Below, piece after piece: positions 1 to 38,430 of a DNA stretch of 64,000 nucleotides; positions within the stretch are counted from its first letter, which is position 1, and each line of letters begins with the position of its first letter. This DNA is from Pilaira anomala. Its lineage: Eukaryota > Mucoromycota > Mucoromycetes > Mucorales > Mucoraceae. The translations under genes were made by a program, and so were the position numbers. Location of the stretch: NCBI GenBank assembly GCA_025716855.1, contig JAIXMQ010000011.1, forward strand, positions 248,001 through 312,000, in the 5' to 3' direction. The notes below the pieces were generated by a model, which worked only from the letters and a program-made list of their open reading frames with translations, had not been told where the DNA came from and did not search any database.

Positions 1-725
1 AACGCATTGACTCCCTTTTAAAAAAAAAATATATACATTACTATTCGACCGCGCTTTCCCTAAAAAAAAAAAAAAGAATTTCGATTTTTGTATACCTTTT
101 TTGGTGTCTTTCCATCGATCACAAAGTGTTGTAAAGCTGATACAAATCCAGTTCTTCTAAACTCTTGGTGAATGAATTTGGCACGTCTATTATTATTATT
201 ATAATCGTCTTAGTTATTTTTCTTTATATATAAAAATAAATGAAGGGGTGTTGTTGGGGGGTTTCTTTATTTTTTTCTTCTTACGTTTCACTGTCTTCTT
301 CTTGAATAGATACAATCTTGTCACGATATGCTTCTGCTGTATGAATATCGTTAAAACCATAGTCTAAATTAGCCTTTTGAAAAAAGTTGTTAACAAGTGA
401 TTCGTTTCTATTTTTTTTTTTTTTCGGTACCTGTCCTGGTAATAAGGCGTTTTCAGAAATATAGGTTCGTTTATTATATCCTTCATAAGGTAAAATAAGT
501 ATCCAACCAACTGCAACAAAGAATAACAGTATACTTTTTTTTTTACTTTCAAAAGTTAGATTCCATATTTCATCTTTCTAAAAAAAAAGAGCATCCTTTT
601 TTTTACCTAAGTACAGGAACCCATTTCTGTACTGCTCGTAATAACTTTACACGTTTTTCTGGGTTAAAAGGTTTAGAACCTGTGTTTCGTAGTGCCCAAC
701 GGTTTTTCAACTTTTCTAAAAGCAT
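1..725 (-). CDS. GAA1: GPI transamidase subunit Gaa1, N-terminal part (runs off the window)
   Basis: Gaa1/GPAA1 is an ER-membrane subunit of the GPI transamidase, which attaches GPI anchors to proteins. The start codon is at 725-723. Exon 1 (615-725, 37 codons) begins MLLEKLKNRW. Exon 2 holds a hydrophobic segment (FFVAVGWILILPYEG) followed directly by RTYISENALLPGQV, the Gaa1 signature after its first membrane span. A third exon (about 100-190) reads RAKFIHQEFRRTGFVSALQH, matching the start of the luminal domain. Introns open with GTACTTAG, GTAAGAAG and GTATACAA. The gene continues beyond base 1, so only about 150 of the expected roughly 600 residues are seen. The exon after position 60 is not resolved. 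Confidence 0.78.
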
Positions 726-1221
726 TCAAACTGTTTAAAAAAAATAAAAAAAAAAAAAAAAAAAGGGGGATGAATTTGTGTTGTCTTATTATGTATGTGT
801 GTGTTACAGAAAGTGAATTTTGAGACTGTTTTCGCATTGTATTAGTTTTCAATTGGTAAACGAAAGCAGGTTTTTTGGTCTTTTGAAGGAATCCTATTCA
901 ACTTCTTGTCTGCTGGATGATTAAACATCCATCTGGTTTAGAAGGACTCTCCTACGTAAACTTGCACTCGCAATTATACCAATCAGCGAAACACGCTTGA
1001 AAAGTGAGGTAATTCATCGAGCTTATTATTACAAGTTTGTGATTTAATCGCGTGTAGAAAAGCAGTTAACAATGCATATTGGATTTCCACCACTCACATA
1101 ACAAACCATTCCCTATTATAATCACTTGAATTAAATTTTTAATATTGAATTATATATATATAAAAGAAAAAAAAGATGTGAATTTATTTATAATAATCAA
1201 TTTTTTTTTTTTTTTTAAATT
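726..1221. other. Spacer between USP7 3' end and GAA1 5' end
   Basis: This stretch should hold the USP7 3' UTR and the GAA1 promoter, since both genes lie on minus. There is a long A run just upstream of the GAA1 start and a T run at 1201-1216 just past the USP7 stop. No convincing reading frame or RNA gene is seen. Confidence 0.6.
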
Positions 1222-4200
1222 TTAACCTCTGATAAAGATACCCTTTTCAAAAACGCTACTAAAGCGACTTTTTGAGGACTTATCGATGTGATCTAATCCA
1301 AGGGCATCTTCTTCTTGTAGACGAGCGGCTCTCAACTCGAAATTTGATGGATCAAATACAGTGACTTGAGGTTGTGGAGCGTTCAAGTTTTTGAGAAGAG
1401 TGAATTTCACTTTTTTCCAATCCATATCACCTAAGCCAGTTCTCTTTTGTAATCTCTTTTTTGTTTCTTCAAATGGTTCACCCTAGAATGACAATCATTT
1501 AGTATAGGGCATATTTTTATTTTGTAAATATATGTAATTTTTTTTTTTTTTTTTTTACCTTGATAGCGACAAATCTGAAAGGAATACTATGAAATTCAGT
1601 AGGTTCGTTATGATAATGAACGACTTGAATTAAACGATCATTATCTTGATCCATTTCTAATTCATCTTTGGGAATAGGCTATATATATATAAAAAAAAAG
1701 AATGAGTAAACTTTGTAAATATATATATACTTATAGATATATACCTCTGCATAGACAATCGAATTCTTTTCAGAAGCTACATTATCCACAGTTTGATCAA
1801 GTGAGAACTCCTTTGTCACTTTACCATCTAAAGCCTCATACAATCGAATCTTAGAAGGATCTTTGACATCCATCTTTCCTTTCGCGATGACTTGATCCAA
1901 CAACTGACGCACCGACCCAGCTCTTGAGACAAGCGCAGTGACTTTAGTTTCTTTACGTAAAGTAGGACCCAAGATATGAACATCAATCGATCGCTTTGAT
2001 TCCAAATCGGCCAAGTCGACATCCAAGACTTCATAATACATGATGGGTGTATTGACATTTTCAAAGCTGACGAATTGAGCGTATTCATTGGGCTTAGGTA
2101 AATTTGGAATCATTTCTTCTAAGCGAGTTGTGGGCTTATAATGAGGGATTTCACGAGGTTGGTTTGTGATGGGGTGAGATGACATGAGACGAAGTTTACC
2201 TGCTTCTACGTTTAATTCAGTTGCGAGTTTTTTGGTGATGGTATGGTACGTTGAGGTTCTATCGAGGATGAGCTTGAGGTCTTGTTTTGTATTGGTTTTG
2301 GAGGAAAGTGTGGGGTGGAATAAAATACAGGTTTGGTTATATAATGAAGTATAAAAGTCGGGTACAGATGTTATTTTTCCAGATTTCATGTATTCGTCGA
2401 TTCTATAAAAGTGTGTGTGTGTATAAGAAAGAGATAGATAGATAAAATAGAAATTCATAAATAAAAAAAAACTTACTCTTTTGAAGAAAGGGTTTGTTGG
2501 AAACAAACAATATCACCATGTTGGATTTCAGCTCTACGGAAAGTGATGTCGCTCTTTAATTGATCAATACCGGTTGGTTTTACTTCTTCAAAGAGTTGAA
2601 TTGAGGTGCTCTTGGTTAATCCAGCTCTTTCTGCTAAGGTAGATAAGATACTTCCAACTTTATCGTTAAGAGAAACAAACATATGACCAAGACCTCTGTA
2701 AAAAAAAATGATTTATAATGAATATCGAAACCTCCCTTTTTTTTTTTTTGGTGATTTTTTTTTTTTTACCTTAATTTTTGTTGACGGACGTCAAAGTACT
2801 TTATAAAGATGAGCATTTGATCGTTTTTAAGTACAGGTAATGGTTTATCCTTTTCAGCAATTTCTAAATATAATTTAGTAAATCCATTACTTTGTGTACT
2901 AACACACGTTGTTTCTCTCATTCTTTCAACAGCTACACACACACAAAAAAAAAAAGGGGAGAGGAGAGTTAAAAAATACATGTATAAAAAGAAAAAAAAA
3001 AAAAAAGTATCTTACTTAATCTTTCATCAGCAGAAGTTAATGGTTGATCTACACGAACAGTCTTGTTTTGACGGTAAAGAATACTCCATAATCTAAATCT
3101 GTCTGATTCAAGTTTATAGTGATCGATTAATTGTTGTTTAAATGTACTGACTTTCTCTGTCTTTAAGGCTTTGAAGATGTCCACACCAGGTGATGCTTCT
3201 AAATATCTGTCATCAAATACAGCTAAATTAAATCCTTGATAATCCTTGAATGAATCATCTGTCACAACCTAAAAAAAAAAAAAAAAATGGATCAGTCATC
3301 TTGGTACTTATATAAAAGGTAAAAAAAAAACACACAGACTACTTACAGCAACTTTCACATTCAATTGCATGTCTAAGCGATCTTTTTTACGTTTTTCAAG
3401 TGTTGCTTTTTCATCATCTAATCGACGTTCTACAATTTAAAAAAAAAGGGAGGCGTATGAATTACATCACCATGTCATAAACTAAAAAAAAAAAAAAAAA
3501 AAAAAAAAAAACTTACTTAAATGTTGAGGAATATCGGATTCTTGTACAGGAGCCAAGATATCATCTAATTTATTCTTTCGAATATAGACCAACATGTAAG
3601 CATTTGTGAATCGTTTCATCATACGAACACTATTGACTCTATTATTGGTACCGTTCAAGAAAGTAGCAGCGACGGTAGGATCTTTACCGTTACGATGCGG
3701 TTCATCACCGTAATTCTCTTCGAATACTTCTTTTTTGGAAACGGGTGTGACACGATCGTCATCGAAACGGAACCATTTGTCGTTTGCTTCGGGTCGAATT
3801 AAAGCGAAATAATGACCGCCTGTGATATCACCACTATGAACTAGAACACTGTACATACAGAAAAAAAAAATGGGGAGGAGGAGGAAGGGGGTGGGGGTTG
3901 GGGTTTAAGTTGTCTGGTTTTATAAAAAAAAAAAAAAAAAAAAAAAGTAAATATATATATATATATTCTTACCCGTGAAGTTCATAATCGTATGGACCAT
4001 CTTTATCTGCATTAGAACAATACTTATCCAAGTTGATTTCAGCAGGAAATTCATGTCTATCGTTAATCTTTTTTTTTTTTTTTTTAAAAAAAAAAAGGAG
4101 GGGGAGGTTTAGAAGAATTGAAAGAAATATTAAAAGAAGAAGTATCATTATTACCTTGACCATTGTATCTCTCATGAAATCATATTCGAAACGTTTCAAT

Positions 4201-5662
4201 TGTAAATGCAAGACGGGAGGAAAGCTTTCAAAGATGACGCCCTTTTTAGCATCTTGCAGGCCATGACCTTCAGCCATATACTTATTATCACCTTCCAAAG
4301 TTTCGACGGTAATATAATCATCAAAAGAATCGATTAAATTTCTACAACCCTTGACATTCAGCTGAATATCATAATAATCCTCCACTCTCGAAGATTCAAA
4401 ATCGACATTAATACATTTAATATAACTCTTCATCTTTCCTTCAAATAATTTCGAGATAGCGCCATCAGCGGGAGTTCCTTTCATCTTTTCCTCTAGATTA
4501 TCTTGCAAGACACGATTGAATTCCTGTACATCATGTTGCATGAAGGCGTCCAGGGTGTTCCAGCCAAACGAGTGAGTGAGTTCGGTGGTACCGATGGGAG
4601 CGGAAGAGTACTGAAGATGATAAAAGCAACGTTGTAAGGCCAAGGCAACACTCTTGGTCGGTTCATCGCCTTCGGTCGGTATTTCATAAACGGCCTTTCT
4701 GAACTTGTTTGTACAGTAAAGAGATTGTAATAAGGAGTTCATGTAACATGTTGCGCCTTGGTTTTTGATACCGACGTATCCAGTTTCTTTACGTGAGTCG
4801 TAGTTTGTAAAGTTGTGCCATAAGACACCGGTTTCGTCTTTGACCGTACGGATAAAGACTGAAATCACGGTTTGGTTATTGACGAGGAAAGGTCCTTTTT
4901 CTGTTGCGGACATTTGAGCTAAATCGTCTAGATCATAAAAACGCGTAAATCCCCAATCAATCTCATCAGATGAAAAACGATGGTTTGCACCTTTATATAT
5001 ATATATAAAAGTTAGCGTTTTTTTTCTTTCTTTGTTCTTGTTTTTGATAATAGTAAAAAAAATAAAGGAAAACACTTACTGTTGGAATAGTAACTTGTGG
5101 GATCTTCGGGATTGGAAATGACGAGAGCAAACTGTGCACAAATATGCCATCCGTCTGGTAAGTTGTTTTCTTTTGGATTGGCAATTTCGAGATAAACCGA
5201 AGTGGATTTCTTTTGGTTATTTCCTTTTGGAAATAATAAGATACGCCTATTTGTGTGTGTGTGTGTGTGTGTGTTAAGTAAATTTTTTGTTTGAATGTAT
5301 ATTATATAAATATTTTTTTTTTTTTTTTTTTTTTTTTACCAAGGGAAACCATTGACATGAAAAACAGGAGAGTGTGTCTTTGTTTCTAAGGCTTTCCAGT
5401 CTTGAATATACCAGTGAAAGGAACCAACATTTTCAGTTTCTAGTTCAGTATTTTCTGGTAAGATTGCTTTGAACATGGCATCCTCTAAATTTTTATGTGT
5501 TAGTGAGTATTTGAGAGAAAGAAAAAAATGTGTATGTTTCTTACGGTCGTTGATATTGGGTTTATCAATAGTTAAAGTAGCCAAGCTGGCTTCCATCTCG
5601 GGTGAAGGTTCATTAAGCGTCAAGTCTGAATCGACTTCTGCTGTATTTTTAGTTACAACCAT
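1222..5662 (-). CDS. UBP15: Ubiquitin carboxyl-terminal hydrolase, USP7/Ubp15 family
   Basis: This is a cysteine protease that removes ubiquitin from substrates; the family acts in nucleus and cytosol. About 1,080 residues in roughly a dozen exons, start at 5662, stop at 1224-1222. After an acidic N-terminus comes a MATH/TRAF-like domain (GSFHWYIQDWKAL through IDWGFTRFYDLDDL). The catalytic USP domain follows, with the Cys box GYVGIKNQGATCYMNSLLQS and the His box SGDITGGHYFALIRPE. The C-terminal third has the ubiquitin-like modules typical of USP7 (region with LGHMFVSLNDKVGS, QLLDQVIAKGKMD) and ends FEKGIFIRG. This order (MATH, USP, ubiquitin-like repeats) separates USP7/Ubp15 from other USPs. 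All catalytic boxes look intact. Introns are short and carry A or T runs; the start follows a 41-nt T run on the coding strand. Confidence 0.95.
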
Positions 5663-5688
5663 TATATATAAAAAAAAAACGTAATAAG

Positions 5689-5693
<5 letters not shown>

Positions 5694-5734
<41 letters not shown>
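5694..5734. repeat. Poly(dA:dT) tract of 41 bp in the USP7 leader/promoter
   Basis: An uninterrupted A run on plus (T run on the USP7 coding strand), ending 32 bp upstream of the USP7 start. Long dA:dT tracts of this kind repel nucleosomes in fungal promoters; that role here is inference. Confidence 0.6.
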
Positions 5735-5737
<3 letters not shown>

Positions 5738-6542
5738 TTTAGGCACGGAGTATCAATATATTATGAATTTGAAAAAATAATGCAAAAAAAAAAAAAAAAA
5801 ATGAGAGAGACGTGTGGAGAAGTGATTGTAGCTCTTTTTTGACTCGTTCGCTTTCAGTTTCTTTTTTTTTTAGCTCATCTTTAACACAACTGTGATGATA
5901 CAATTTTTTTTTTTAATAGCAGCGTGAAACATAAAAAGAGTGTTCTTTATTTTTTGACAGCTTTATATAGATATATAGTATATGCGTTCCAATGCAAAGG
6001 AATTCTATTTGGAATGTTTTATATATTTAAACATATTTGAGAGAGAGAGAGAAGAGGAGAGAGAGGTTTTCTAGTTAAAATACAATGCATTAGTTTTCAA
6101 TATATGCCCTGAATTTTTGATACATTTGCTGTCAAGACAAAACGGGTCTTTATTTTTTTTTTTTTTTTTTCTGTTACGATAGAAACAAATGTTTACAAAA
6201 TAAATCGAGAGCCTAACTTTTTTGTTTCATGAATTTTTTTTTTTTTTTTATGGTTCCATCATCATTTTTAAGGGGAGGGGGGAGTGAAAATGTTTCGATC
6301 TTTATACCGTTTCAAGTGTTTGAACTCATTACTGTTTATTATGATTGAAGAACAGTTTTTCCTTTTAAAGAAGAAGAGGAAAGGCCATGAAACAAAAAGG
6401 GGGGGGGTTTTTTTTTTTTTGCTCTCTGTATAATATAATATATATTAACATTTTAATAAATAAAATAAAATTGGAAAAGTCACTTCCTTTTGTTTATGAG
6501 GCCTTTTTTTGGTAGATCCGACTTTTTAAGTGTACCTTTTGT
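5735..6542. other. Spacer between USP7 and the LINE
   Basis: AT-rich DNA with many T runs, a GA-rich stretch near 6040-6065 and a G9-T12 block near 6402-6420. It holds the USP7 promoter. No gene is supported. Confidence 0.5.
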
Positions 6543-6555
6543 AAACAACAACAAC
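6543..6555 (+). repeat. Candidate 5' target-site duplication of the LINE
   Basis: AAACAACAACAAC immediately upstream of the ORF1 CATGG. The same 13 bp recurs at 12127-12139 after the A tail. It is low complexity, and its A residues merge with the tail, so the exact length is uncertain. Confidence 0.55.
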
Positions 6556-6556
6556 C

Positions 6557-7966
6557 ATGGTTCTTTCACGTAAAAATCAGTTTAATAACCTTTCGAACTC
6601 AGCTACTGCTGACAAGACAGGTCAACGTCCCTCCTCCACCCCATTCCAATGGTCAAAAGTGGTCTCAGGCCAGACAAGAACTACCAGGTCTTTTACACCT
6701 ACTGTAGTTCAGACTTCTGTTCCGGCTGAAGTTTCAACTGACCCTGACAATGAACACATGTCGGAACCAAGTGAGATGGTAACTCGACAACTTGTACGTC
6801 CATTTTTAAAGGGCATTGAGAACAACAGTGTTCTGATCGACATCACCGATATTGCAAATATTGATTCCTTGTGTGCTGAATTGAGAGAGTTTAATAAAGA
6901 CTCCCTAGCCAATACAGGATACGAAGATTATTTAGGTCATTTACCTCAGCGACGTAAATACCTTAATCGAACCTTCTTAGAGACCATGTGGTTAACTGGT
7001 AGTCCTGGACACCTAGCTATCACTACTGAAGGTCTAACACTGTCTGATAAAAAAACGTATATCAAAGGTTTTTCGAGTTTCCTTGGGGACTCACATATCA
7101 CGCGTCTCAGTTTAGAACGCTTACCTTTTCTCCCGACGAAATTATTGGAACAAGATATGCAAGCGCGATTGGCTGCATTTGGAAAAGTCTTGGATCTTGG
7201 TATTACCCTTTACCGTGGGGATTATATGGGCCAAGGATATGCTACGTTGGATACTACTCCTACGAAGGACCAATTGGTTCCTTTTGAAAAACTTACCCGT
7301 GTCATTGACTGGACCACTGATGATGGTGACGTCCGTCACGTACTTTTGCAATGGGAAGATATGCCAGATTTTTGTCGGATTTGCCAAAAATATGGTCACT
7401 GTCGGGCTGACTGTCCTGATTACCAAAAATATTTGAAGTGTCACAACTGCAACAAAACCGGGCATATTATGCGTAACTGTCCTAGACACAACTCTCCTAA
7501 GTCCGATTTAGCTCCCTCAAAAAAAAAAAAGAGTGTAGCAACTGACATTAGTCCCAAGCCTCGTAAAACAGCCAATATTATGAAGCAGGAAAATGTCGAT
7601 AAGCAATTAACTAAGGATAATATTAACTTGTTAACGAATACTCCTGAGCCAGTGGTCAATTCCGAGTCTGAGCCACAATTACTAATCGATACCAATATGC
7701 AAGAGGCAGGCGCAGAGGAACCTGAGCCAATGAAGTTGACGGTTGATCTGACTTCACCCATAACAAAGGAACTCATCACTCAAATGCGTTCACCTACTCC
7801 TGAACGACTTCCTACTACAACCTCTAAAATTAGTAAAACCAAAGATGACAGCGACGTCAGCTACAATCGTCGCAATTCAGTAAATAATAAGCCTTCAAAA
7901 TATTCTAGTGCAGCACAGTCTCCTGCGGCGGTCTTACCTGATAGACCCATAGGTGGATCCCAGTAG
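6557..7966 (+). CDS. LINE ORF1 protein (zinc-knuckle RNA-binding protein)
   Basis: 469 residues. ORF1 proteins coat the element RNA and help form the retrotransposition particle. The middle (about residues 75-260) resembles an RRM-like nucleic-acid-binding fold followed by a linker, as in many LINE ORF1 or gag-like proteins. Two CCHC knuckles follow: CRICQKYGHCRADC and CHNCNKTGHIMRNC, both CX2CX4HX4C. The C-terminal 150 residues are Ser/Thr/Pro/Lys-rich and look disordered, with a KKKK basic patch after the knuckles. The start codon sits in a good context (CAACAACAACCATGG). The stop TAG is 34 nt before ORF2. Confidence 0.9.
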   Translation: MVLSRKNQFNNLSNSATADKTGQRPSSTPFQWSKVVSGQTRTTRSFTPTVVQTSVPAEVSTDPDNEHMSEPSEMVTRQLVRPFLKGIENNSVLIDITDIANIDSLCAELREFNKDSLANTGYEDYLGHLPQRRKYLNRTFLETMWLTGSPGHLAITTEGLTLSDKKTYIKGFSSFLGDSHITRLSLERLPFLPTKLLEQDMQARLAAFGKVLDLGITLYRGDYMGQGYATLDTTPTKDQLVPFEKLTRVIDWTTDDGDVRHVLLQWEDMPDFCRICQKYGHCRADCPDYQKYLKCHNCNKTGHIMRNCPRHNSPKSDLAPSKKKKSVATDISPKPRKTANIMKQENVDKQLTKDNINLLTNTPEPVVNSESEPQLLIDTNMQEAGAEEPEPMKLTVDLTSPITKELITQMRSPTPERLPTTTSKISKTKDDSDVSYNRRNSVNNKPSKYSSAAQSPAAVLPDRPIGGSQ

Positions 7967-8000
7967 GGTTTCCGCTTGCTCACTCATTTTATAAACTTTT

Positions 8001-11000
8001 ATGAATAATAACACTCATAGATTAAAAATAGCCACACTCAACTGTCGTGGACTCAAAAAACTCAATAACCCAAAAAAAAGACAACAATTTATTCGATTTC
8101 TTCGTTATGATGGATATGATATCTTGGTTCTCCAAGAAACCCATGCCAATGACGAATCAACAATTCAACAATTCAACATGCAATTCCAGTCAACTTCCAG
8201 TATCTGGACCTCTCAAACTGGAATTATTTCTCTCAAATCTAAATTTATAGTTCGCCATATCGACTCAGGTATTGACGATGGACGCTTTATTTTAGCCGAT
8301 ATTATTTTAAATAACTCCAACCACGAACAAACAATCGCTACTATTCTCAACATATATGGTAGAGTGGGGTCAGACCCTTACAAACGTGAATTCTTTTCTG
8401 CCCTTCTCAACTATCCTAATATCGCTACAGCTATCACTCAACCAAACAAGAACGTTTTTATTTTAGGGGACTTCAACTACAAATCCGATCACTATCGCCC
8501 TGATGGATCATTACCTGGAGCACCTTTGGAATGGACCAATTTATTAAACTTACATTTTATCGATTGTTTTGCGGATGAAAAACAAATTACTTGGAAAAGT
8601 GGTAACTCTTCCTCTATTATTGATTATATTTTTTGTCGCTCTCATATTCAACCTTTAGTGCACAATAAGGCACAAAAATTCATTTCTAACTCATGGACTG
8701 ATCATGCGCTATTATCGGTGGAATTTATTTACCAAAGTGAATTGGAGAAAGGACCTGGTGCTTGGAAAGGAAATCCCTTCTTAGCTCACAACCTATCCTT
8801 CAAATTAGCTTTAAATGTATACCTACAAACTTGTGTTTCAGAAATAGAAATTATGTCTACTTTCTCCAGCTCTCAACAAATATGGGATTGGATCAAGCAA
8901 GCTGTCAAATCTTTCGTTCGTGATTTTCAACTAGAAGATCTGAATTGGCGGAAAAAACAACTTGTAAAACTACAAAGGAAACGCAATAAATTTTTACGAC
9001 AACAGAAAAATCGAGGCTTTTGCTATACGATTTTGGAACGAACTGAACAACAGATTAGCTCTTTACAAGAAGAACTCGCTGAAATTGAGATTCTCAAGGC
9101 GGGAAAATTTTGGCGCGAGCACGGTGAACGTTCTGCTGGCCTACTGAAAAGGACAACCATGGTACGAGAGCAACAGCGGCAAATACGAGAATTGGTTGAT
9201 CCAATTGATAACTGTGTACACACAGATCGTCTACAACTTAAACGTATAGTTCAGTCTTTCTATTCTACTTTGTACTCTCCATCTCCTGTTGAGGATGAAG
9301 TAGTTCAAAAACTGCTTGACAATATTCCTGCTCATACTAGAATCTCTACTGAAGTCGGGGACACTCTCCTGAATCCAATTGAACTACAAGACATTATTAT
9401 GGAAAGTAAACGCTCACCAAAAAAAAGCAGCCCTGGTTCTGATGGGCTACCTTATGAAATTTTACACTTGATCATGTTGTTCGTTCCATTTCAACCGGTC
9501 ATTCTTAAAGTTTACAATGATGCTCTTGAAAAAAGTGTGTTTCCCAAATCTTGGAATGACTCCATCATGAGTCTGTTACCGAAAAAAGGAAACCTCTCCA
9601 ACCTGAAAAATTATCGTCCTATCTCACTTGCTAACACGGACTACAAAATATTTACTCGGATTCTGAACACAAGAATTATGCCTATTGCAGATGATCTTAT
9701 CAATAATCAACAACTTGGTTTTCTACCTGGTCGATACATTGCTGAAAATGGATTATCTTGTCAAATTATAATGGAGGATGCTTTTCGAAAAAAACAATTA
9801 AAAAAGAAGCACAATATCGTACCGATCGATAACCACGATATAGGACTTTTATTAGATCAAGAAAAAGCGTATGACCGAGTGAATTTAGATTACCTCTCTG
9901 CTGTTTTGCTACGCTTTGGCTTTCCTCAACCTTTGGTTACTTGTATTAACAATCTGATGGGTCAAAACCGTATTCAAATCAATATCAATGGATTCTTTAC
10001 GGATGATGTTCTTAAATTGCGTGGACTGAAACAGGGTGACCCAATCTCGCCTATATTATATAATCTAGCTTTTGAACCCTTCCTTCGATCAATTCTGAAT
10101 GATTCATTATTTAAGGGTTACAACATGCTACCAGACTCGGCAATTACACGTACGGATTCGCAAGTGGGGATAGCTCCTCCGATCAATGCTATCAATACCA
10201 AGATATTATGCTACGCTGATGATGCTTTAGTCTTACTCCATGATACTGACGATCTAGCAAGATTATCAATTCACATGGACCTATTCTGTCAAGCCTCCAA
10301 TGCAAAATTTAATTTTAATAAAATCGAAGCCTTTACTCTGTCAGGTCACAACTCATGGAACTATTGGCAACAGGCTCTTGAAGCATTACAGATTCACAAG
10401 CTAGTGTCCGCCACGGATCCTGAACCGGTGATATACCTTGGCCTACCAATGATCCAATCGGTTCGACAACGTACTAACTTTGTCCACTCCATGGTTCAAA
10501 AATTAAAAACTGCACTCCAACCTCATCTGTCTAGGTCTCTGTCAGTTGTAGGTAAAGCCACGGTTTTGAATTCGCTCATTTTGTCCAAATGTTGGTATAT
10601 CTTTCGCGTTACCCCGTTAACTCAAAAAGATCTCAAGCTTCTTACATCAGTCGGCATTCAATTCTGTAAGGTTCAAACTTTTCCTGCTATAGCTTGGTCT
10701 ATTTGGACTGGTCCTACTCGTCGCGGCGGTCTTGGGGTACTAGATCCTAGGAATCAATATCTTGCTTTGTCACTACGTTGGCTGCTCCCACTTCTTGAAG
10801 ATACTCCTGCTCAGACCTCACTAACACTGATGCTTCAGCTCCATATCAATAATCGTAACTCTTCTCTCTATCATCAAATTCCACTACTGTTCCCTCAAAC
10901 CAGACAAGTCGGTTTCTCAACTGAAAGATTGAACACTATTGACATGTTAAATGCTGCCATTGATTGTATTCCCAGGAACTTCGATGGTATCCACGTCACA

Positions 11001-11906
11001 CCAGCTACTGCTTTATCTCTTCCTCTCACCAGTTTCTTGACACCTAAAAAAAAGATACCGGCCAAAGTGATAAAATTATTAGGGACCCATTTATTTACAT
11101 ACGACCCAAGTCAAAACTACATCTGTTGGCGGACCGTACCTGAATTTGACGTACAATGGGGTACCTCTCCAAGACTAATTTCTACAAGACTTTTGTCTGG
11201 TTCCCTAGTGATGTCTCCTTTCTTCCAGGTTCTCGGCAATCCTACGGTACCTATTCAATTTCCAGACCCTAATATTATTAGCTTTAAACCATTTGTTCAA
11301 GCTCTTAGCCTCTCAGGCATGCCTGTACTATCGCTCCCATCCAAACAAGTCTCAAAACACTTTCGGAAAAATTATTACCAAGTAAACAACACCCTTCCAT
11401 CCATTTTAACACAGATTCGGGCATCCTTCTGGAATACCTTTTGGTCTCTATCTCTTGTAGCTGTTCAACGGAACGTCGTCTTTCGGTTCCTCACAGGGTC
11501 AATCCCTAATAGAGCGTTCTTATTCCGAATCTTTCCTGAAAAATTTACCTCACCTTCATGTACAATATGTGGACTCGAAGTCGAAACCACCAAACACATG
11601 CTCTTTGATTGCCCACCAAAGTCTTTTGTTTGGAAAAACATTATTTTCGAATTTTTATGGCCCACGGTGACTATCCCGGATATTATTACTGCTCTCTCGT
11701 CTATGAACTTTCACGACATTCGTTACGTTCAGAAATCGGGTTCTACAGCTCAAATGGTTGTATATATAACACTTGCCAATATTTGGAAAGGTCATTTCAG
11801 AAGCTCCTTTGACTCTACTCCTTTCCTCGGTCCTATTATTTTTCTTCAAACAAAAAAAGATATTGCTTCTCGGTTGGAAGAAGGGCTTATTCACTCAAGG
11901 CTATAA
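8001..11906 (+). CDS. LINE ORF2 protein: AP-like endonuclease plus reverse transcriptase
   Basis: 1,301 residues with no interruption. The N-terminal exonuclease/endonuclease/phosphatase domain has the expected motifs: LKIATLNCRG (Asn), VLQETHA (Glu), ILGDFN (Asp-x-Asn), SIIDYIFC (Asp) and SWTDHALLSV (Asp-His). The central reverse transcriptase has SPGSDGLPYE, NYRPISLANTDYK, LLLDQEKAYDRVN, GLKQGDPISPILYN and the active-site box CYADDALVLL. A C-terminal zinc-binding segment (CTICGLEVETTKHMLFDC) matches the zf-RVT module. No RNase H domain is evident after the RT. All catalytic motifs look intact, so the copy could be competent; activity is inference. Confidence 0.93.
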   Translation: MNNNTHRLKIATLNCRGLKKLNNPKKRQQFIRFLRYDGYDILVLQETHANDESTIQQFNMQFQSTSSIWTSQTGIISLKSKFIVRHIDSGIDDGRFILADIILNNSNHEQTIATILNIYGRVGSDPYKREFFSALLNYPNIATAITQPNKNVFILGDFNYKSDHYRPDGSLPGAPLEWTNLLNLHFIDCFADEKQITWKSGNSSSIIDYIFCRSHIQPLVHNKAQKFISNSWTDHALLSVEFIYQSELEKGPGAWKGNPFLAHNLSFKLALNVYLQTCVSEIEIMSTFSSSQQIWDWIKQAVKSFVRDFQLEDLNWRKKQLVKLQRKRNKFLRQQKNRGFCYTILERTEQQISSLQEELAEIEILKAGKFWREHGERSAGLLKRTTMVREQQRQIRELVDPIDNCVHTDRLQLKRIVQSFYSTLYSPSPVEDEVVQKLLDNIPAHTRISTEVGDTLLNPIELQDIIMESKRSPKKSSPGSDGLPYEILHLIMLFVPFQPVILKVYNDALEKSVFPKSWNDSIMSLLPKKGNLSNLKNYRPISLANTDYKIFTRILNTRIMPIADDLINNQQLGFLPGRYIAENGLSCQIIMEDAFRKKQLKKKHNIVPIDNHDIGLLLDQEKAYDRVNLDYLSAVLLRFGFPQPLVTCINNLMGQNRIQININGFFTDDVLKLRGLKQGDPISPILYNLAFEPFLRSILNDSLFKGYNMLPDSAITRTDSQVGIAPPINAINTKILCYADDALVLLHDTDDLARLSIHMDLFCQASNAKFNFNKIEAFTLSGHNSWNYWQQALEALQIHKLVSATDPEPVIYLGLPMIQSVRQRTNFVHSMVQKLKTALQPHLSRSLSVVGKATVLNSLILSKCWYIFRVTPLTQKDLKLLTSVGIQFCKVQTFPAIAWSIWTGPTRRGGLGVLDPRNQYLALSLRWLLPLLEDTPAQTSLTLMLQLHINNRNSSLYHQIPLLFPQTRQVGFSTERLNTIDMLNAAIDCIPRNFDGIHVTPATALSLPLTSFLTPKKKIPAKVIKLLGTHLFTYDPSQNYICWRTVPEFDVQWGTSPRLISTRLLSGSLVMSPFFQVLGNPTVPIQFPDPNIISFKPFVQALSLSGMPVLSLPSKQVSKHFRKNYYQVNNTLPSILTQIRASFWNTFWSLSLVAVQRNVVFRFLTGSIPNRAFLFRIFPEKFTSPSCTICGLEVETTKHMLFDCPPKSFVWKNIIFEFLWPTVTIPDIITALSSMNFHDIRYVQKSGSTAQMVVYITLANIWKGHFRSSFDSTPFLGPIIFLQTKKDIASRLEEGLIHSRL

Positions 11907-36041: not shown

Positions 36042-36527
36042 GTTTGAGAGGAATGAGGTTGAAATGAATTTTTTTAAAAAGAAAAGGTTAAAAAGAAGAA
36101 GGGATGTTTTATGTATAAATCTAAAAATTGCGGTAAATAAAAATCTATTGTTGTTGTGTCAAAATACAAGTTTTAAATGATTATTTTAGTAGGATTACTA
36201 GAAGTTTTCTTGTTTTTTTTTTATACATCTAATATAATTCAAGGGATTTGCTATTGTAACTTAACATTTCGTTTGTAATGATGATTAAAATCATCTGTTT
36301 CAACCAAATATTAATTCTATTTTTTATTAAATCTATTAAAATAATATCAGTCAGAAAACCATAATCTCATTCTTTTTTTTTTTTTCTTTGTTGTTGTTGT
36401 CAATATTTTTTAAACAACTATACAAAGTCCCGGCTTTGCTTTTATTAAAACAAGTATCTTTAGGACTTACTCTAGCAAAACATAAGTAATTATGAACGTC
36501 TCACGATAAAGAGAGAAAAACAAAATA
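36042..36527. other. Spacer between the RNase H1-like gene and tRNA-Val
   Basis: RNase H1-like promoter and tRNA 3' flank. Plus-strand T runs at about 36211-36221 and 36374-36386 could not serve the minus-strand tRNA as terminator; no T run is seen immediately downstream of it on minus beyond TTTTG/TTTTTC at about 36511-36524. Confidence 0.4.
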
Positions 36528-36601
36528 TGATTTCTGCCAGACTTGAACTGGCGACCGTCTGCGTGTTAAGCAGACGTGATAACCGACTACACCAAGAAAC
36601 C
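36528..36601 (-). tRNA. tRNA-Val (anticodon AAC)
   Basis: On minus the gene opens GGTTTCTTGGTGTAGTCGG and ends CTGGCAGAAATCA. The 7-bp acceptor stem GGTTTCT/AGAAATC pairs with one G-T. The anticodon arm is TCTGC-TTAACAC-GCAGA, giving anticodon AAC. The T loop GTTCAAGTC is the B box and TGGTGTAGTCGG the A box. There is no intron. The first 17 nt are duplicated at 38413-38430. Confidence 0.93.
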
Positions 36602-36602
36602 A
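36585..36602 (+). repeat. 18-bp duplication, copy inside the tRNA-Val gene
   Basis: GACTACACCAAGAAACCA: tRNA nucleotides 1-17 plus one upstream base. Identical to 38413-38430, on the other side of the ORF1-only element. Confidence 0.9.
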
Positions 36603-38412
36603 CACACATTTCTTTCACTTTTAAAACACTTTTTATTTTGTACTACCTCAAAAAAATTTTTTTTTTACAACAACAACAGTTAGATTTTACATTTAAACGA
36701 TAATATTCCATTCTAATGAGTGGGGTTCCTATCTCTATCCCTCCACGTAGTGGAAGAACAAACTCTGATAGCTCCTTTTCTCAACAACGTAACAGTATTA
36801 AACAAAATACTTTACATAAAATAAATAAACAACAACAAAAAAAAATTGTACGCCACTCTCGCACTGGTTCAAACAACTCTCTCTCTCCCACTTCTCAAGG
36901 AATTAAAACAAATGACAGCAATAATAGCTTACCACCCTCACCTACATCTACAACACTTCTTGAAAATGTTATTTCATTGATGCAATTTCCCGACTATCGA
37001 AATAAAGTGATATGTCCTACATGTAACAGTACAGGTACCATTATTAATAAAAATAGTACTACCTCTAGACAAACAACAGATCCCAGACCAGATCAACAAT
37101 TTAAATGTAACAACTGTAAAAAGTTTGTTACCATCACACAATTACGCAGTCTTATTTCAACAGCAATTGGTACATCATCATTCGCCTTGCCTAACACCAC
37201 TGATAACAATAATAATAGTAATTATAAAAACAAGATCAACAACAATAACAGCACCAACAGTGATTCAATCATGGAATTGGATAATAAATCTTCTTCTTCT
37301 TCATCACCTCAACAACAGCAACATTCAACAAATGATTTTCTATTAAACAAATTATCAATTTTAGAACAACGTTTAGATTCATTTCAAGTCATCATTGATG
37401 AAAATATCTCTATGAAAGCTGAAATAAAAAGACTTACTTTAATTATAAAAAGTATGCAACAAAAACCAGCAGATCTTATTGAAAATGTGCAAAAACAAAT
37501 AACAAAAAAATCACAAAAAAATGCATCTATTTATAACAATAATAATAACAACAACGAAGAAGATGTTGGTGATACCCACATGCACCATGCAGGGGAAGCC
37601 TCATCTTCAGGTAACACAAAATTAATTGATTACGATCAAAATTTTCCATCTATTTTACCACAACAACAACAACAACAAGAACAACAACAACCATCAAAAA
37701 TAAAAAAGAAAAAATCAATAAAAAATCATCGCTCATATAAACCAACTGAAAAGGATTTAGTTATAGCACAACGTACCTTTCAGGAAAAAAAAGAACAAGA
37801 TATCAGCAATTTTATTTATACGTATGTTCCAGTACATCGTAGGTTCAGATCAAGCGAGTTAAGAAAAAAACTCTCTCTCCTCGGATTAGATAACGTTCAA
37901 ATCTTAGATGCCTACTGCCCAGATTGGAAAGTAGCTGCAATACTAACACACGAAAAATATCAACCACAATTAATTGAAGCCTTTTCTAAAGCAAAAATTC
38001 TCACTTCTTTTTACAATCATTTGGATCCAATTCATATTCGTGATCCCAAACATCAACATTTAACAACTGAACAAAAATTAGATCTTTCTAAAACAATTCA
38101 AAATAACAACATGATGCGCGCATTGAAACATATGCGTTTTACAGCCAAATATTCAGTAGCCAGATCATTCTTTCGAGATGGTCTAATCACTTTAACACAA
38201 TTACAAGACACACTCAAATCCAGATATATATCTGATGCTACAGGTTTTGTTACTTCTGTAATGGAACCTTAACATTTTAAACTTTCGCCTTTTTTTTTCT
38301 TAAACATTACAAGAATTTTTTTATATCATATTTACATTTATCCTTTCTTTGGGGGAGTAACTAGTACTCATGGCGTTGCTAAGACGACCACCTCTTTAAT
38401 AAAAACCTCTTT
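36603..38412 (+). mobile_element. ORF1-only ('half-LINE') retroelement inserted in the tRNA-Val 5' end
   Basis: About 1.81 kb bounded by a perfect 18-bp direct repeat, holding one long ORF that resembles LINE ORF1 proteins of Mucorales and no reverse transcriptase. The 3' end has a 15-nt unit repeated about 1.5 times (ACCTCTTTAATAAAA, ACCTCTTT) directly before the duplication, like the short-repeat tails of some non-LTR elements. The 5' part has a CAACAACAACA leader similar to that of the LINE at 6.5 kb. The ORF1 likeness is from memory of the family and is inference; the boundaries are seen directly. Confidence 0.75.
36716..38272 (+). CDS. LINE ORF1-like protein with zinc ribbon and conserved C-terminal domain
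   Basis: 518 residues, one exon, no interruption. Residues about 98-140 form a zinc-ribbon-like CPTC...CNNC pair (VICPTCNSTGT and FKCNNCKKFV). The middle is Asn/Gln/Ser-rich with poly-N and poly-Q stretches and a short coiled coil (NKLSILEQRLDSFQ, MKAEIKRLTLIIKSMQ). The last 180 residues are compact: YTYVPVHRRFRSSELRKKL, NVQILDAYCPDWKVAAILTH, HLDPIHIRDPKHQ and TAKYSVARSFFRDGLITLTQ. This C-terminal part is what I associate with ORF1 of Mucoralean LINEs. No RT, endonuclease or protease motif is present. Function here would be nucleic-acid binding; unproven. Confidence 0.75.
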   Translation: MSGVPISIPPRSGRTNSDSSFSQQRNSIKQNTLHKINKQQQKKIVRHSRTGSNNSLSPTSQGIKTNDSNNSLPPSPTSTTLLENVISLMQFPDYRNKVICPTCNSTGTIINKNSTTSRQTTDPRPDQQFKCNNCKKFVTITQLRSLISTAIGTSSFALPNTTDNNNNSNYKNKINNNNSTNSDSIMELDNKSSSSSSPQQQQHSTNDFLLNKLSILEQRLDSFQVIIDENISMKAEIKRLTLIIKSMQQKPADLIENVQKQITKKSQKNASIYNNNNNNNEEDVGDTHMHHAGEASSSGNTKLIDYDQNFPSILPQQQQQQEQQQPSKIKKKKSIKNHRSYKPTEKDLVIAQRTFQEKKEQDISNFIYTYVPVHRRFRSSELRKKLSLLGLDNVQILDAYCPDWKVAAILTHEKYQPQLIEAFSKAKILTSFYNHLDPIHIRDPKHQHLTTEQKLDLSKTIQNNNMMRALKHMRFTAKYSVARSFFRDGLITLTQLQDTLKSRYISDATGFVTSVMEP

Positions 38413-38430
38413 GACTACACCAAGAAACCA
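38413..38430 (+). repeat. 18-bp duplication, distal copy of the tRNA-Val 5' end
   Basis: GACTACACCAAGAAACCA, identical to 36585-36602. It is too short to be a tRNA and marks the far end of the element. Confidence 0.9.

Follow-up and report, generated by a model that had tools for sequence, protein, structure and literature searches.

An ORF1-only LINE relative in a tRNA-Val(AAC) gene of Pilaira anomala and its likely kinship with LINEs inserted at tRNA 5' ends

Introduction

Several mobile elements exploit tRNA genes. The dictyostelid TRE5 and TRE3 elements are APE-type LINEs for which tRNA genes are presumed safe sites. TRE5 lies 40-54 bp upstream and TRE3 40-150 bp downstream, whereas the edges described here fall within nt 1-18 of the tRNA; the tRNA-linked LINEs TRE5, TRE3, NLTR-A and NLTR-B are listed only beside the gene (PMC5911963). 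NLTR-A of D. purpureum is a non-LTR element 2-6 bp upstream of the mature tRNA, comparable to the 1-8 bases that separate tRNA and start motif here, and the main text of that paper contains neither "target site duplication" nor "TSD" (PMC5006619). Elements such as TRE5-A are reported to have no fixed insertion position within their targets, and Dewa is placed in a tRNA-Leu spacer (PMC3706591). An A-box consensus has been given for Dictyostelium (PMC5391098). Inside the A box, at tRNA nt 8-13, insert DNA transposons of the Dada type, in five lineages plus Perkinsus families (PMC8869645). R1 and R2 are LINEs that likewise target fixed sites in a multicopy RNA gene; R1 makes a 14-bp duplication and is ridden by non-autonomous R1-type SIDEs, according to the abstract of PMC3414825. 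HAL1 of mammals is a non-autonomous LINE derivative coding for ORF1p only (PMC5753468). ORF1-only elements (HAL1), LINEs beside tRNA genes (TRE, NLTR) and A-box DNA transposons (Dada) are already known. A search of the open-licence PMC literature for LINEs that sit within the A box and restore the tRNA by their duplication yielded none.

Results

The tRNA-Val locus

We analyzed a 64,000-nucleotide stretch of P. anomala DNA, called the window (C13:248001-312000; C-numbers denote contigs). The 18-mer GACTACACCAAGAAACCA is present in two exact copies, with no third in the window on either strand (Table 1). They flank a 1,810-bp segment that has one intact 518-codon ORF and adjoins a tRNA-Val(AAC) gene; the distal copy is the 18-bp tRNA piece alone. 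From base composition the 18-mer is expected about 1e-6 times per 64 kb, and a chance origin is negligible. The repeat is a target-site duplication, and its edge would place the first-strand nick between tRNA-Val nt 17 and 18 (36585|36584). In the segment's tail ACCTCTTT is present twice, at a spacing of 15 nt. ARAGORN called the tRNA at 36527-36602 and Rfam at 36528-36601, which sets nt 1 at 36601; the 60.4-bit score comes from a separate Rfam run, a faster scan over the whole window having missed this tRNA. By the consensus, TGGTGTAGTCGG is the A box. Two full-length LINE families begin with CTCTTTC(A/G)CTTT, which the element's start resembles by eye. The perfect 18-bp repeats, intact tRNA on one side, 518-codon ORF and tail repeat of the preliminary description were all reproduced.

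A tRNA fragment repeated on the distal side is the classic look of bacterial tRNA islands. The segment might accordingly be read as a recombinase-inserted island with att-like repeats, its tRNA rebuilt as in those islands. This is extremely improbable given that an ORF scan found no second ORF of at least 150 aa in the segment, that the segment has a LINE ORF1 and a LINE-like tail and shares its site with LINE relatives, and that repeat length differs by site.

Table 1. Features of the window locus, copies of the Val element, and related junctions in the assembly
Feature	Position	Strand	Basis or remark
tRNA-Val gene, anticodon AAC, intact	36527..36602	-	ARAGORN; Rfam RF00005 60.4 bits; identical tRNA at three other loci
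A box of tRNA-Val, nt 8-19, TGGTGTAGTCGG	36583..36594	-	position read from sequence
Target-site duplication, copy beside tRNA, nt -1 to 17	36585..36602	.	sequence comparison
ORF1-only non-LTR element, 1,810 bp	36603..38412	+	ends coincide with other copies
5' UTR	36603..36715	+	start CACATTTCTTTCACTTTTAAAACAC
ORF1, 518 aa, intact	36716..38272	+	two Cys pairs, predicted coiled coil, shared C-terminal domain
Branched hairpin, predicted, close to 3' end	38351..38394	+	predicted too in SINE-like tail at C73
3' tail CTCTTTAATAAAAACCTCTTT	38390..38412	+	two other LINE families terminate TTAATAAA..TCTTT
Target-site duplication, distal copy	38413..38430	.	sequence comparison
Val element copy	C73		96% identity; ends 25 bp before 3' end; ORF frame broken
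Val element copy	C174		two pieces, 94-96% identity
Val element copy	C193		first 197 bp, then end of contig
Relatives of Val element	C35, C84		71-72% identity over ~470 bp, within ORF1
Tail piece of Val element	C73		SINE-like sequence
Duplication, Val			18 bp
Duplication, Leu-AAG			15 bp
Duplication, Leu-CAA			16 bp
Duplication, Lys-TTT			17 bp
Duplication, Thr inner	C192		17 bp
Duplication, Thr outer, second element of array	C192		18 bp
Duplication, Thr	C59		19 bp; intervening stretch partly unread
Duplication, Trp			14 bp
Duplication, Phe	C97		imperfect, 12 bp by eye
tRNA-Val(AAC)	C13, C193, C35, C84		element at nt 1/-1
tRNA-Leu-AAG	C35, C217		element adjoining 5' end
tRNA-Leu-CAA	C157		element adjoining 5' end
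tRNA-Phe	C97		element adjoining 5' end
tRNA-Lys-TTT	C1		element adjoining 5' end
tRNA-Lys-CTT	C143, C79		element adjoining 5' end
tRNA-Ile-AAT	C174		element adjoining 5' end
tRNA-Thr	C192, C59, C68		C59, C68 tRNAs partial, named by identity to C192 tRNA-Thr
tRNA-Trp	C158		element adjoining 5' end
tRNA-Met	C183		sequence adjoining 5' end, by position only

The ORF1 protein

A Pfam scan gave no match in the 518-aa ORF1. By eye its two Cys pairs are like a zinc ribbon. BLASTP found only four homologues, none with a named function, and the sole named relative is from Thamnidium elegans. The three long homologues match the window protein (P0001) at 86, 56 and 41% in the alignment and at 82, 50 and 40% by BLASTP. 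P0001, P0002 and P0003 share their ending; P0004 and the relative on C35 continue further, and P0005 reads on into an endonuclease. The contigs of P0002 and P0003 (2.2 and 2.1 kb) are too short for a whole LINE, so these two are not proof of an ORF1-only form. With the C-terminal domain of the ORF1 from the LINE at tRNA-Leu, hhalign gave 98.5% over 158 columns. The gene that had been called ORF1-like is a LINE ORF1: its relatives continue into or lie ahead of an APE endonuclease, and its C-terminal domain recurs in the ORF1 of a full-length LINE.

Substitutions between the window ORF1 and the C73 copy number 10/9/26 by codon position (third-position excess, p 7e-4), and those against C174 number 13/12/32 (p 3e-4). 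The corresponding dN/dS values are 0.018/0.074 = 0.25 over 511 codons and 0.037/0.143 = 0.26 over 349 codons. This shows ORF1 under purifying selection with dN/dS of about 0.25, the signal being two comparisons in one genome, one with a broken copy (C73) and one covering 349 codons (C174).

Copies of the element and occupancy of its site

Searching the assembly (34.25 Mb, 225 contigs) with the element DNA yielded at least 20 stretches of similarity, with 15 of 15 candidates scored. Thirteen of them measure 38-77 bp; one of these lies in the tail, and the others, in Asn/Gln-repeat stretches of the ORF, were excluded. The 5' ends at C73, C174 and C193 and the 3' end at C174 coincide with those of the window copy. 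At C193, C35 and C84 each element or relative adjoins an intact tRNA-Val(AAC). C73 and C174 are head-to-tail arrays, in which the tail is followed by GACTACACCAAGAAACC and then by the start of the next element; the would-be head tRNA lies outside the stretches read. Because the contigs of C174, C193 and C84 end within elements, arrays may exceed their assembled length.

The upstream tail at C73 is part of a SINE-like sequence (stretch ~2520-2866) with a B-box-like GGTTCAACCCC, seen by eye. It has the Val element's 3' hairpin, tail and target in common, and no other full copy of it was found. A CGTATAC-rich repeat (L085, C192, C73) precedes this SINE-like piece and interrupts a LINE 5' UTR.

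The 17-mer of tRNA-Val nt 1-17 occurs exactly seven times in the assembly: in four tRNA-Val(AAC) genes, in the distal duplication on C13 and at the array junctions of C73 and C174. The anticodon-arm pattern, allowing up to 3 mismatches, finds four sites in the assembly, the same four genes, and no orphan tRNA-Val half. These genes are identical across the tRNA. Since all 17-mer and anticodon-arm matches are accounted for, each of the four known tRNA-Val(AAC) genes (4 of 4) is adjoined by an element and all remain whole; the assembly holds no empty tRNA-Val(AAC) locus for comparison. If the assembly is complete here, we infer that the rebuilt genes must work. Six further matches to the 17-mer carry 2 mismatches. 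Four are the 5' ends of tRNA-Pro genes (15/17 bases) and two have no tRNA call; the Val element had no match at any of the six loci.

All copies found thus sit at the same tRNA-Val site or in arrays, the check that the preliminary description had proposed. It read the locus as a tRNA gene whose 5' part had taken up a retroelement and which the duplication keeps whole, and these other copies at the same site bear this out. Could the ORF instead be a tamed host gene or a dead fragment? Having four homologues only, and no named function, would suit such an origin. Several copies of 94-96% identity share the same ends and lie at the target site or in arrays, and ORF1 is constrained; we consider that origin very improbable.

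Two-ORF relatives at tRNA-Val

The window element has ORF1 only, without endonuclease and RT. Both domains are present in ORF2 of the LINE at tRNA-Leu, and the C35 relative has an endonuclease. There, ORF1 pieces are accompanied by a 408-aa ORF that contains endonuclease domains and is interrupted by another inserted LINE; at C84 the contig end falls within the endonuclease. The ORF1 frames of both relatives are broken. A search of the assembly by the endonuclease part found no intact Val-type ORF2/RT gene. Two neighbors were also observed. The C35 stretch 217-3399 holds a zf-RVT-type LINE RT where the Val-type ORF2 breaks off, and the C84 stretch 3573-7074, just past tRNA-Val, has ORFs that by eye resemble Ty3-type gag, protease and RT.

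These relatives would allow a two-part retrotransposon, in which the ORF1-only element supplies ORF1 to ORF1-decayed LINEs and uses their RT and endonuclease, with the Val(AAC) A box in common. The window ORF1 is intact and constrained while ORF1 is broken in both Val-type LINE copies, and the C-terminal end is common to two database relatives (82%, 50%), as if the ORF1-only lineage were old. Against this, the short C73 copy is also broken and no live ORF2 partner was found; we regard the arrangement as doubtful.

A wider group of LINEs at tRNA 5' ends

Beyond the Val genes, tRNA genes for Leu, Phe, Lys, Ile, Thr and Trp are adjoined at their 5' ends by full-length LINEs (ORF1, endonuclease, RT), again in the same orientation. 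The endonuclease search of the assembly matched 50 stretches and the 5'-UTR search 22. Seeded from these LINE searches, the list of tRNA 5' ends adjoined by an element has 17 entries (Table 1), of which 15 are linked to the LINE group by sequence, C68 weakly and C183 by position only. Six stretches were tested by following the duplication or tRNA as a pointer. At C192, C158 and C143 a LINE begins at the tRNA as expected; C59 is a 5'-truncated LINE, identified by its RT reading frame; C68 is likely a LINE; and C183 is unrecognized sequence, with no LINE sequence in the 385 bp read beside tRNA-Met. Element and tRNA stand head to head wherever the strand is known, at C183 from position alone. The tRNA and the chosen start motif are 1-8 bases apart in all ten junctions measured. 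C173, outside these ten, is an exception; its LINE start is ~480 bp away from tRNA-Phe, and a clear duplication is lacking. No 5' end was read for the endonuclease matches at C90, C193:320788, C136, C156, C54, C78, and C157:309345 and 313039.

A second two-ORF LINE lies in the window itself at 6557-11906, with open frames for a 469-aa zf-CCHC ORF1 and a 1301-aa EN-RT-zf-RVT ORF2; ARAGORN made no tRNA call there.

Of 12 junction pairs compared, nine set a 3' junction beside the tRNA at that locus and three combine ends from different loci. Eight of the nine same-locus pairs match, over 14-19 bp. The duplicated sequence changes with the tRNA targeted, and its length varies between sites. The outer edge is at nt 1 or past it, by one base for Val, Leu-CAA and Thr outer and by two for C59, where the second base may be chance. 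As it falls inside the tRNA in none of the eight, the tRNA is rebuilt each time. Up to three inner-edge bases (AAC) may equally belong to the element tail, which would put the nick at about nt 14-17.

LINEs might insert broadly, with only tRNA-gene insertions surviving selection in a compact genome. C173 is off site, and tRNA neighbors were examined for part of the endonuclease matches. Survival alone would not explain why unlike families share one orientation and almost identical edge positions, nor why arrays build up at a single site, and we judge this explanation highly unlikely.

Sites of the GNNNNNNTRGCTCAGTYGG form number 28 (control 0), with at least six occupied including C68 and C183. 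There are 12 sites of the Leu form (control 1), at least three occupied, and 11 of the Val A-box form (control 4), at least four occupied, which are the Val(AAC) genes. These occupancies are lower bounds, and not every matching site is a proven tRNA gene. In an endonuclease tree of 19 rows, with a long Val branch and an unsure deep order, tRNA-adjoining elements are distributed over four or five branches (Val; Lys-CTT; Leu; Phe/Trp/Thr/Lys-TTT; C68). As these branches are separate, the tRNA habit is likely old in the group.

Targeting could come from the Pol III machinery, through contact with TFIIIC or TFIIIB of the kind proposed for TRE5, rather than from reading of the A box by the endonuclease, the edges then marking DNA exposed on the complex. 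This would be a variant of A-box cutting and not its opposite. The targeted genes have differing A boxes (TGGTGTAG, TGGCCGAG, TRGCTCA), their edges lying near nt 14-17 and nt 1, and in vitro data on TRE5-A suggest contact of its ORF1 with TFIIIB subunits (PMC5006619). On the other side, the Val element is only at Val(AAC) and absent from the four near-match tRNA-Pro genes, one family is at TRGCTCA-type genes and another at Leu in 3/3, and the edges are exact to a few bases, as against the 40-54 bp range given for TRE5 (PMC5911963). Targeting by the Pol III machinery is possible, and we hold it somewhat improbable. That families prefer different A boxes and that the Val element spares four tRNA-Pro genes favors a share of direct DNA reading.

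Named database relatives down to 32% identity belong to genera such as Mucor, Rhizopus, Phycomyces, Helicostylum, Parasitella and Mycotypha; two further ones, far weaker, are from a fly and a plant. Three species are Mucorales by taxonomy look-up, and we take the genera of the remaining relatives to be Mucorales also. This is probably a tRNA-cutting LINE group of Mucorales fungi. Because full-length LINEs show corresponding sites and duplications at other tRNA genes, the half-LINE of the window very probably belongs to this group, whose members would cut in or just after the A box and rebuild the tRNA by the duplication. The preliminary description tied this behavior to an element without RT; it is not peculiar to such an element, as full-length LINEs do the same at several tRNA genes.

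Discussion

The segment is in all likelihood a non-autonomous ORF1-only member of the APE-endonuclease LINEs that would integrate by target-primed reverse transcription inside tRNA genes, and RT and endonuclease would be supplied in trans. Target-primed reverse transcription is established for LINEs, with the first nick at the 3' junction. The duplication places that junction in or just after the A box, so the endonuclease would first nick the tRNA-coding strand there, in the Val gene between nt 17 and 18. The 3'-OH at the nick would prime cDNA synthesis on the element RNA. On the second strand the cut would fall at nt 1 of the mature tRNA or immediately outside it, and fill-in would duplicate the 14-19 bp between the nick and nt 1, or one or two bases past nt 1. 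The tRNA beside the element's 5' end would then be complete again with its internal promoter, and could be hit again. Repeated hits would yield head-to-tail arrays, the newest element being expected closest to the tRNA. A Val-type or other LINE of the group may supply RT and endonuclease, and selection would maintain the 518-aa ORF1 protein.

Such a cycle suggests a harmless parasitism of essential genes, in which the cut falls in the internal promoter and the duplication rebuilds the gene. A whole family of isoacceptor genes could be occupied at once and reused. The group would offer a natural set of LINE endonucleases with differing tRNA A-box preferences, useful for studying how APE endonucleases find targets. 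Why ORF1-only LINEs retain ORF1 becomes a testable question in a compact fungal genome.

Among known systems, HAL1 shows that half-LINEs as such are not new (PMC5753468). The window element codes for ORF1 only and has copies at several loci; mobilization in trans would be the further trait of a HAL1-like half-LINE. HAL1 derives from L1; the window ORF1 gives no Pfam match, and the element around it has a specific site within a tRNA gene. Dada elements differ in having a DDE transposase and a short TAGCTC-type duplication, the window element in its 18-bp duplication and large ORF without a Pfam match. R1 and R2 target rRNA genes, and SIDEs are element ends for which the abstract mentions no ORF (PMC3414825). 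NLTR-A has an RNase H domain; a domain scan found RNase H in none of four long ORF2 relatives (1131-1254 aa; the C-terminal part of this genome's LINE ORF2 lay outside the scan), and PF00075 is listed for six more distant database relatives. NLTR-A may use the same duplication trick, which is reason for a fresh look at this dictyostelid element.
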